Positions 52,013 through 54,217 of a stretch of 64,000 nucleotides of DNA are shown here, one piece after another. The notes beneath the pieces were generated by a model. The model did no database searches. It was given only the letters and a program-made list of their open reading frames with translations, and was not told where the DNA came from. Made by a program: the position numbers and the translations under genes. The stretch covers positions 744,001 to 808,000 of the forward strand of contig NZ_CP095491.1 in assembly GCF_023028105.1 (NCBI RefSeq), given 5' to 3'. Origin of the DNA: Halosolutus gelatinilyticus. GTDB taxonomy: Archaea; Halobacteriota; Halobacteria; Halobacteriales; Natrialbaceae. Position 1 is the stretch's first letter; every line of letters begins with the position of its first letter.

Positions 52013-52336
52013 CGGAAACCGTAGGGGACCACGGCTCACCCGTGCTTTGTTATTGAGACCAGACGGACGATAATCGCGCGTTAGGAGCGGTGCGAACGCG
52101 ACCAAGCCGGCGTCGAATTCGCACGGCGATCGACCGCGCAGCGGCGACCCGGATCTCGATCGTTTCGACGGCTCCGCGGTCGGCGAACCGTGGCGACGGG
52201 ACGGCCGATCGCGAGCGGACGACGCCGCTGATCGTCAGGCCCGCGAACCGAGCGGGTGTGACGCCTCGACGGACACGAACCGAAGGCCGCGGCGGGAACG
52301 CAAACGACTACGGGGTTCGGTCCGTACGCCTTCGCC
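52013..52336. other. 324-base intergenic region before the S9 peptidase
   Basis: No gene or RNA is seen. It separates the divergent membrane-anchored gene from the peptidase and must carry both promoters; AACGACTACGG near 52303 is a weak candidate. Nothing else notable. Confidence 0.4.
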
Positions 52337-54217
52337 ATGGGCAGCTACGAGATCGAACGGTATCTCAACATTCGAAGCGCCTACGGCGCGTCCTTCGGGC
52401 CCGCCGGCGATCGGCTCTCGTTCCTGATGGACACGACCGGGACGTCTCAGGTCTGGACGATCACTGAACCCCGCGAGTGGCCCGAACAGCGGACGTTCTA
52501 CGACGAGCGGGTGCTGTTCGCCTCCTGGTCGCCGGAACGTCCCGAGTTGATCTTCGGGATGGACGAGGGCGGCAACGAGCGCGCCCAGCTGTTCCGACTC
52601 GACGCGGAAACCGGCGAGATTACGAACCTGACGGCGATGCCCGAGGCCAAACACCGGTGGGGCGGCTGGAGCCACGACGGCGATCAGGTCGCGTTCGCGT
52701 CCAACCGTCGGGACGAGGCCGTCTTCGACGTGTACGTCCAGGGGCGGGACGAGCGGGGCGACGAGGCGCAGCTCGTGTACGACGGCGACGGCTGGCTCTC
52801 GCTCGCCGGGTGGAGCCCCGACGACACCCGCCTGCTCGTCTCGCAGGCGTACTCCAACTTCGATCAGGATCTCTACGTGCTCGACCTGGAGACGACGGAG
52901 CTCGATCACCTCACGCCCCACGAGGGCGACGTCCGGTACACGCGGGCGAGCTGGGCGCCCGACGGCGAGGGCGTCTATCTCGTAACCGACGAGGGCGACG
53001 CCGACACCCTCTATCTGGCCTACCTCGACCTCGAAACTCGAGACCTGGAGACGGTCGTCGAGGGAGACGGATGGAACGTCGACGGCATCGCCCTGGACGA
53101 CGAGACCGGCCGGTTCGTCTACTCGCGCAACGTCGAGGGCTACACCGAGTTGACCGTCGGCGAGTTCGATTCCGACGATCCGACCGCGTTCGAGACGTTC
53201 CCCGAACCGGACCTGCCCGGCGGCATCGCCGGCGGCGTGAGTTTCGCCTCCGGCGCCGATCGGTTCGCGCTGTCCACCTCGGGCGACGCCGTCAACACGA
53301 ACGTCTTCGTCGTCGACGTCGAGACCGGCGACGCCGAACGCTGGACGAGCGCCCCAACCGCGGGCATTCCGCGGGAGTCGTTCGACGAATCCGAACTCGT
53401 CCACGTCGAGAGCTTCGGCGTTGACGGGCGAAGCCCGTCCGCTCGTGGGACTCCGTCGGAGTCCCACGCTGGACTCGACGTGCCCGGCTTCCTGACGCTA
53501 CCGGAAGAGTCCGCGAGCGGCGACGCCGACGAGGACGGCGCACCGGTGATCGTCGACATCCACGGTGGCCCCGAGGGCCAGCGCCGACCCTCGTTCTCCA
53601 GCGTCAAGCAGTACTTCCTCGATCGGGGCTACGCCTACTTCGAGCCGAACGTCCGGGGATCGTCGGGGTACGGCGCCGACTACGCGGCCCTCGACGACGT
53701 CGAGAAGCGGATGGATTCGGTCGCGGATATCGAGGCTTGCGTCGAGTGGCTGCGCGAGCACCCGGCGATCGATCCAAATCGCATCGCCGCGAAGGGCGGC
53801 TCCTACGGCGGGTTCATGGTCCTCTCGGCGCTCACCGAGTACCCCGATCTGTGGGCCGCCGGGATCGACGTCGTCGGCATCGCCAACTTCGTCACGTTCC
53901 TCGAGAACACGGGCGACTGGCGCCGCGAACTCCGGGAAGCCGAGTACGGGAGCCTCGAAGACGATCGGGAGTTCCTCGAATCGATCTCGCCGATCAACAA
54001 CGTCGAGCGGATCGAGGCGCCGCTGTTCGTCCTCCACGGCGCGAACGACCCCCGCGTCCCCGTCGGCGAGGCCGAGCAGATCGTCGAGAAGGTCGACGAA
54101 CAGGGCGTGCCGGTCCGCAAGCTGATCTTCGACGACGAGGGCCACGGCTTCTCGAAGCTCGAGAACCGCATCGAGGCCTACTCGGCGATCGCCGACTTCC
54201 TCGACGAGCACATCTGA
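52337..54217 (+). CDS. S9-family (prolyl oligopeptidase/acylaminoacyl-peptidase-type) serine peptidase
   Basis: A 626-residue cytosolic peptidase. Residues 1-380 form a beta-propeller with WD-like blades (VLFASWSPERPELIFGMDEG and AGWSPDDTRLLVS are examples), and about residue 395 starts the alpha/beta-hydrolase domain with VIVDIHGGPEGQ. The catalytic triad is Ser489 (GGSYGG), Asp571 (HGANDPRV) and His603 (DEGHGF). It should cleave oligopeptides or acylpeptides. Residues 363-377 (DGRSPSARGTPSESH) are encoded by a two-hairpin repeat inserted in frame exactly at the propeller/hydrolase junction. ATG 52337 gives MGSYEIERYLNIRS. Confidence 0.93.
   Translation: MGSYEIERYLNIRSAYGASFGPAGDRLSFLMDTTGTSQVWTITEPREWPEQRTFYDERVLFASWSPERPELIFGMDEGGNERAQLFRLDAETGEITNLTAMPEAKHRWGGWSHDGDQVAFASNRRDEAVFDVYVQGRDERGDEAQLVYDGDGWLSLAGWSPDDTRLLVSQAYSNFDQDLYVLDLETTELDHLTPHEGDVRYTRASWAPDGEGVYLVTDEGDADTLYLAYLDLETRDLETVVEGDGWNVDGIALDDETGRFVYSRNVEGYTELTVGEFDSDDPTAFETFPEPDLPGGIAGGVSFASGADRFALSTSGDAVNTNVFVVDVETGDAERWTSAPTAGIPRESFDESELVHVESFGVDGRSPSARGTPSESHAGLDVPGFLTLPEESASGDADEDGAPVIVDIHGGPEGQRRPSFSSVKQYFLDRGYAYFEPNVRGSSGYGADYAALDDVEKRMDSVADIEACVEWLREHPAIDPNRIAAKGGSYGGFMVLSALTEYPDLWAAGIDVVGIANFVTFLENTGDWRRELREAEYGSLEDDREFLESISPINNVERIEAPLFVLHGANDPRVPVGEAEQIVEKVDEQGVPVRKLIFDDEGHGFSKLENRIEAYSAIADFLDEHI
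53423..53467 (+). repeat. In-frame two-hairpin repeat inside the S9 peptidase
   Basis: Two perfect adjacent hairpins: GACGGGC-GAA-GCCCGTC (53423-53439) and GTGGGACTCC-GTC-GGAGTCCCAC (53445-53467). Both have 3-nt loops; the second has a 10-bp stem. Together they span 45 bases, 15 codons, so the reading frame is kept. It resembles a mobile palindromic (REP-like) unit. Confidence 0.8.

Follow-up and report, generated by a model that had tools for sequence, protein, structure and literature searches.

The S9 (prolyl oligopeptidase family) peptidase gene of Halosolutus gelatinilyticus carries an in-frame double-hairpin segment that is a member of a class-wide, dispersed and apparently undescribed family of haloarchaeal elements. 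The gene lies in a window of 64,000 nucleotides (contig NZ_CP095491.1, positions 744,001 to 808,000), and coordinates given below without a contig or locus label are those of the window. In the reading that we consider probable, the family is non-autonomous and palindromic, resembles REPs and PATEs, is kin to the right ends of IS200/IS605 elements, and has inserted in frame in many unrelated genes. How selfish palindromes spread through protein-coding genes can be tested in archaea amenable to genetics, because this family spans a whole archaeal class, sits in conserved enzymes whose empty sites allow comparison, keeps one codon phase, shows compensatory change within coding sequence and has a plausible insertion sequence (IS) relative.

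A double hairpin in frame in an S9 peptidase

The host gene (52337..54217, plus strand) encodes 626 aa, and the translation of the open reading frame and the Pfam match (PF00326, E = 2.3e-47) indicate a full-length hydrolase domain and a frame that stays open across the insert. Alignment of filled and empty orthologues places the element at 53420..53470 on the plus strand, a net 51 nt or 17 codons (VDGRSPSARGTPSESHA, residues 362-378) lying between the native codons GAC and GGC/GGA, the first of which reads GGC in the window copy. Sequence, fold and covariation define within it hairpin 1 (53423..53439, plus strand), with the 7-bp stem GACGGGC/GCCCGTC and the loop GAA, and hairpin 2 (53444..53468, plus strand), with the 11-bp stem CGTGGGACTCC/GGAGTCCCACG and the loop GTC. 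The linker CGCT (53440..53443, plus strand) corresponds to the family consensus TGCTCG when the foot of hairpin 2 is counted. The earlier note had placed two hairpins with 3-nt loops at this point of the peptidase, and sequence and fold agree; its 7-bp stem also stands, but its second stem of 10 bp has 11, and the net insert measured by the filled/empty comparison is 51 nt and not 45. Hairpin 2 of the window is a long form, and most coding copies elsewhere have a form that is 6 nt shorter.

Folded as DNA, positions 53415-53475 reach -23.4 kcal/mol versus -12.8 +/- 2.6 for 200 dinucleotide shuffles (z = -4.1), 1 of which folds as well. The insert (53417-53473) scores 83.6 bits with a covariance model of the family. 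In an AlphaFold model of moderate quality (mean pLDDT 68.5) it falls in a low-confidence stretch, residues 339-381, at the boundary between the propeller and the hydrolase. An Rfam scan around the insert gave no match near the gathering score, and a search of viral contigs for the insert gave none. An open frame of 410 aa on the minus strand (52235-53467), antisense to the peptidase, starts within the insert and is probably a by-product of GC-rich codon usage.

The segment is present in 7 and absent from 23 of the 30 best peptidase matches, with gapless flanks. The empty orthologues include those of both other genomes of the same genus, again with seamless flanks, as was expected of close homologues if the residues had been inserted. 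Natribaculum breve (L009/L048) carries a 45-nt form at the same site. On a protein tree computed with the insert columns removed and paralogues included, presence and absence need 10 changes over 46 rows, a count to be read with many inner branches being weak and with the starred branches by themselves forcing only 2. For example, a starred branch unites as sisters a filled (G004) and an empty (G031) genome of a single genus. There is also a second site within the S9 peptidase, which is filled by +45 nt in G004, so that both sites are occupied in that genome; a degenerate in-frame copy at this second site in G036 (L033) has broken hairpins and an intact frame.

Copies in other genes and between genes

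The family is poorly visible to literal searches. Exact and near-exact searches returned one match per carrier genome, always in the S9 peptidase gene, and the hairpin-2 core GACTCCGTCGGAGTC has no second exact copy in this genome. Such searches mislead in a family whose structure is better conserved than its exact sequence, and the genome-wide literal search that the earlier note proposed would thus have pointed away from a true finding; the further copies it anticipated are there, four of them strong, when structure is taken into account. A degenerate pattern run against GTDB contigs also picked up the double hairpin in an aminotransferase of Halovivax and, in a haloarchaeal MAG, in a different gene. 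Five bacterial matches to this pattern (Pseudomonas, Hydrogenedentota, Cellulomonas and two Streptomyces) lack the second hairpin and were rejected as chance.

A covariance model (R1) built from 15 copies finds strong copies in most of 125 family genomes and, at E<=1e-5, matches in 196 of 391 Halobacteria genomes and 60 of 86 genera. Only matches well above the GC-rich background, which reaches about 20 bits, were counted, and for that reason weak matches (about 30 bits or less, e.g. L120, L121, L123, L124 and L128) were left out. Five copies in this genome score at least 35 bits, the four besides the peptidase copy at 35-46 bits. They include R1 matches in a gene of the nicotinate/quinolinate phosphoribosyltransferase type (NAPRTase; C1:1873216-1873269) and in a DUF302 gene (C1:291207-291257); with the peptidase, the repeat thus occurs in several unrelated genes of one genome, and two of the five strong copies look non-coding. 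The suggestion of a REP- or MITE-like unit turned coding is borne out by this dispersed family with its in-frame coding copies. Intergenic-looking, partly tandem copies in genomes of the same order (family f5: L246, at 2433-2483 and 2501-2551, and L274, L277 and L280) probably represent a REP-like intergenic mode of the same element family. In genome G202, 53-nt copies (L234-L236) lie inside a longer repeated, apparently non-coding unit, with at least about 150 nt of shared flanks, and adjoin no recognised tnpB.

Clustering of 164 extracted copies by their flanks yielded 70 sites. The common unit is GTC-[NNCGGRC NNN GYCCGNN]-TGCTCG-[NGRGAC NNN GTCYCN]-CGCT (45 nt), and long forms carry an additional 3 or 6 nt within a hairpin, such that units inside genes measure 45, 48 or 51 nt. 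With the host frame set by flank GC3, 44 sites pass the coding filter, every one of them in codon phase 0, and 41 remain after three weak matches are dropped; the only two cases in another phase are both weak, chance-level matches. All 41 coding sites share identical codon boundaries relative to the element and have lengths divisible by three, and the multiple-of-three length first remarked on in the peptidase is therefore true of all confident coding copies. Roughly 17 are sense and 24 antisense to the gene, with one site (TrxB-like) called in both orientations, and the encoded peptides are VDGxxPSARGTxSxxA in the sense and SxGRSPSSSRTQSGDD in the antisense orientation. The other phases, by reading of the consensus, are not generally closed by stops, so the phase bias suggests that insertion is specific or that a hydrophilic peptide is selected for.

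By Pfam, the hosts of coding copies are ordinary conserved enzymes. In addition to the aminotransferase and the NAPRTase they include the large chain of carbamoyl-phosphate synthase (CarB), class I lysyl-tRNA synthetase (LysRS), Lhr helicase, PEP synthase, aldehyde dehydrogenases, a beta-CASP nuclease, aldehyde ferredoxin oxidoreductase, a Cys/Met PLP enzyme, a CbiA/CobB-like protein, a DHH/DHHA1 protein, a sulfatase and an ABC exporter. In sensor histidine kinases the element lies at the NSVEHG motif, in some cases in multiple copies that are nested or in tandem (locus centres of L282, L283, L287, L190, L237, L238 and L248), and one arm of hairpin 2 (GTGGAAC) coincides there with the native VEHG codons.

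Precise in-frame insertion with empty orthologues is seen at four gene sites, namely the S9 peptidase, the NAPRTase, the aminotransferase and the second S9 site. Four of 30 orthologues of the NAPRTase-type gene are filled, with a net +48 nt in this genome. The aminotransferase gains exactly +45 nt between GAC and GGC, as in the peptidase, and the aminotransferase of this genome itself is empty; in that of G007 a decayed in-frame copy (L295) has broken hairpins and an intact frame. Two hallmarks of MITEs are missing from the filled/empty pairs, namely a terminal inverted repeat pairing both ends and a consistent target-site duplication. Empty sites seem to hold one hairpin arm (window 53420-53470, L291-L320 and L113), as in GAC^GGC versus GACGGGC and in CGAGGG of the NAPRTase gene; judged from sequence, this resemblance might result from insertion guided by homology to an arm, or from template switching.

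The pattern of substitution bears on the level at which the element is maintained. Across 107 matches, in an alignment that was fitted to the covariance model and thus leans towards structure, 98.0% of pair cells are standard pairs, double-sided changes occur at 17 of 18 pairs, and shuffles gave 78 double-sided cells and slid controls no more than 27, against the 276 observed. When only coding sites are taken, one copy per site, 98.8% of cells are paired and there are 94 compensatory cells versus 23 (maximum 32) in shuffles. Among the 13 long-form carriers of the peptidase, identity is 96% in the stems, 63% at flanking four-fold sites and 43% in the loops, and third codon positions within the stems are also 96% identical. 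Stem identity and compensatory change indicate that the stems are maintained at the level of the nucleic acid, or have been repeatedly introduced from near-identical sources, and that the loops are free.

Kinship with tnpB right ends and possible routes of spread

Sequence comparison provides good support for kinship of the coding element with the right end of tnpB elements. Many of the non-coding copies, which measure 51 or 53 nt, follow TnpB-type ORFs (PF07282/PF01385) at a distance of about 36-50 nt; it is these copies, and not the window copy within its peptidase gene, that occur at tnpB 3′ ends. One non-coding copy overlaps the 3′ end of an Rfam match to sot0042, a tnpB-associated sense-overlapping RNA, and such RNAs (sotRNA) are regarded as omegaRNAs (PMC12558985). 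The ends of the IS were defined from four copies of one IS in G066, which has a left-end hairpin and a right end composed of two hairpins within an outer stem (CCTCGCCGT/ACGGCGAGG) followed by the terminus GGAGGATGTCAC. At L230-L233, around 2440-2580, a tnpB IS right end folds as a three-way junction with the outer stem CCTCGCCGT/ACGGCGAGG and with GGAGGATGTCAC at its end. Hairpins, linker and tail are common to coding and tnpB-end copies, with up to 86% identity, the shared linker and tail being partly expected since the model that found the copies already contains both. The coding copies have no IS left end, outer stem or terminal GGAGGATGTCAC and are not complete PATEs. The idea that they are placed in a native hairpin acting as the outer stem was rejected, the longest stem averaging 4.89 versus 5.03 +/- 0.15 for re-paired flanks. 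The earlier note's pointer to IS200/IS605 transposases holds as far as kinship with tnpB-linked copies goes, but this genome has one TnpB match and no match to the Y1 transposase (PF01797, Y1_Tnp; a control matched in Haloferax volcanii), and IS200/IS605 mobilisation here and now is therefore unsupported.

The family may descend from, or share an ancestor with, the right-end/omegaRNA hairpins of IS200/IS605 (IS1341-type) elements. It would have spread in the manner of PATEs or REPs as a hairpin DNA substrate of an enzyme supplied in trans at some time and in some host, whether of the IS200/IS605 type or of another kind. Selection at the protein level would then have kept only insertions that are multiples of three and in the phase encoding a Gly/Ser/Pro/Asp-rich loop, and the loops retained at exposed or interdomain positions could be near-neutral surface or linker loops. 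Continued recognition of the hairpin, or its maintenance at the DNA/RNA level, would let the stems persist, with loops drifting and some copies decaying.

A more active role is unlikely, in which the intragenic double hairpins would be live TnpB/IS200-IS605 modules whose RNA or ssDNA is recognised by TnpB or transposase, with empty alleles converted by homing into fixed sites. We hold improbable, too, its explicit form, in which the transcribed double hairpin would serve as part of an omegaRNA scaffold with host sequence as the guide, TnpB would cut empty alleles and recombination would copy the element in. Kinship to the hairpins of tnpB-linked right ends and omegaRNA, the scattered occupancy of identical sites, which changes about 10 times across the gene tree, and conserved stems amid diverging flanks are all consistent with homing. 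However, the final ~20 nt of the right end, which lead into the guide, are missing from coding copies, about half of the copies are antisense to the gene such that the host mRNA would bear the wrong strand, and this genome has a single TnpB. Local formation of the palindromes, by replication template switching from native arms and separately at each site, would make the copies convergent. The likeness of native GAC^GGC in the peptidase and aminotransferase to the arm GACGGGC, and the use of native VEHG codons (GTGGAAC) as a hairpin-2 arm in the histidine kinases, fit such an origin, yet hairpin cores, 3-nt loops, the TGCTCG linker and the CGCT tail are common to unrelated genes and tnpB-adjoining copies, and net insertions of exactly 45 nt recur at three sites, which makes it quite unlikely.

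Selection for the peptide itself is likewise a poor candidate. If its 15-17 residues formed a useful conserved linker, with the palindrome incidental, the single codon phase of all coding copies, the hydrophilic peptide and retention of the same site in several genera would follow; but stem third codon positions are far more conserved than flanking four-fold sites (96% versus 63%), pairing is kept by compensatory changes, the two orientations encode different peptides, and many orthologues do without the insert. We give almost no credence to reading the insert as a long-standing part of the S9 family or as a palindrome that arose by chance in GC-rich DNA. The same peptidase site is filled in some S9 homologues of other haloarchaeal families, as an old segment might be, but the filling is patchy, and conservation among distant S9 homologues, which the earlier note had offered as grounds for rejecting an insertion, consequently does not separate the cases cleanly. 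The empty same-genus orthologues with seamless flanks and the fold z-score of -4.1 argue against these origins, and recurrence of the element in dozens of unrelated genes, that is, the dispersed family, refutes them.

Comparison with known palindromic elements

No earlier report of in-frame coding palindromic elements in archaea was found in the literature searched, which is weak evidence with subscription papers outside the search. Protein-coding palindromes are known chiefly from Rickettsia (PMC10969869) and from intragenic REPs of other bacteria (PMC3733652), with the mobiliser unclear. The haloarchaeal family calls for two cautions: a loop in an alignment of haloarchaeal proteins may be an inserted repeat, and such families escape exact-sequence searches.

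The Rickettsia palindromic elements (RPE; Ogata et al. 2000, 2002; reviewed in PMC10969869) offer a likeness of behaviour, as palindromic, selfish DNA that lies in frame in unrelated genes and is kept as an extra peptide. The archaeal element differs in its size of 45-51 nt (RPE are ~150 bp per PMC10969869), its fixed double hairpin with 3-nt loops, its one codon phase in both orientations and its kinship to the tnpB right end. Closer in host range are the PATEs, palindrome-associated elements derived from IS605-type transposons in Haloquadratum (PMC3119063), which are likewise haloarchaeal, without transposase, ~50 nt long and made of palindromes related to IS605-type ends. PATEs retain their termini, whereas the coding copies have neither the left end nor the right terminal sequence, and PATEs are not described as coding in the searched text of that source (PMC3119063). 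The right end and omegaRNA (sotRNA; PMC12558985, RF02656) share the two-hairpin core and a similar linker and tail just downstream of tnpB, but the IS right end has an outer stem around the hairpins and then ~20 nt ending in GGAGGATGTCAC, and the coding copies have neither.

REPs mobilised by RAYTs are linked to a tyrosine transposase of that type, and this genome has no Y1_Tnp (PF01797) match. GTAG and CGTC REPs occur within genes of several bacteria, and no transposase association is given for the CGTC type (PMC3733652). They are mostly intergenic, with stems of 8-9 bp and loops of 4-5 nt in the CGTC type, in contrast to the 3-nt loops and asymmetric hairpin pair seen here. Like the haloarchaeal element they are small palindromes, sometimes dimers, with some copies inside ORFs (PMC3733652), and CGTC stands at the 5′ foot of many haloarchaeal copies.
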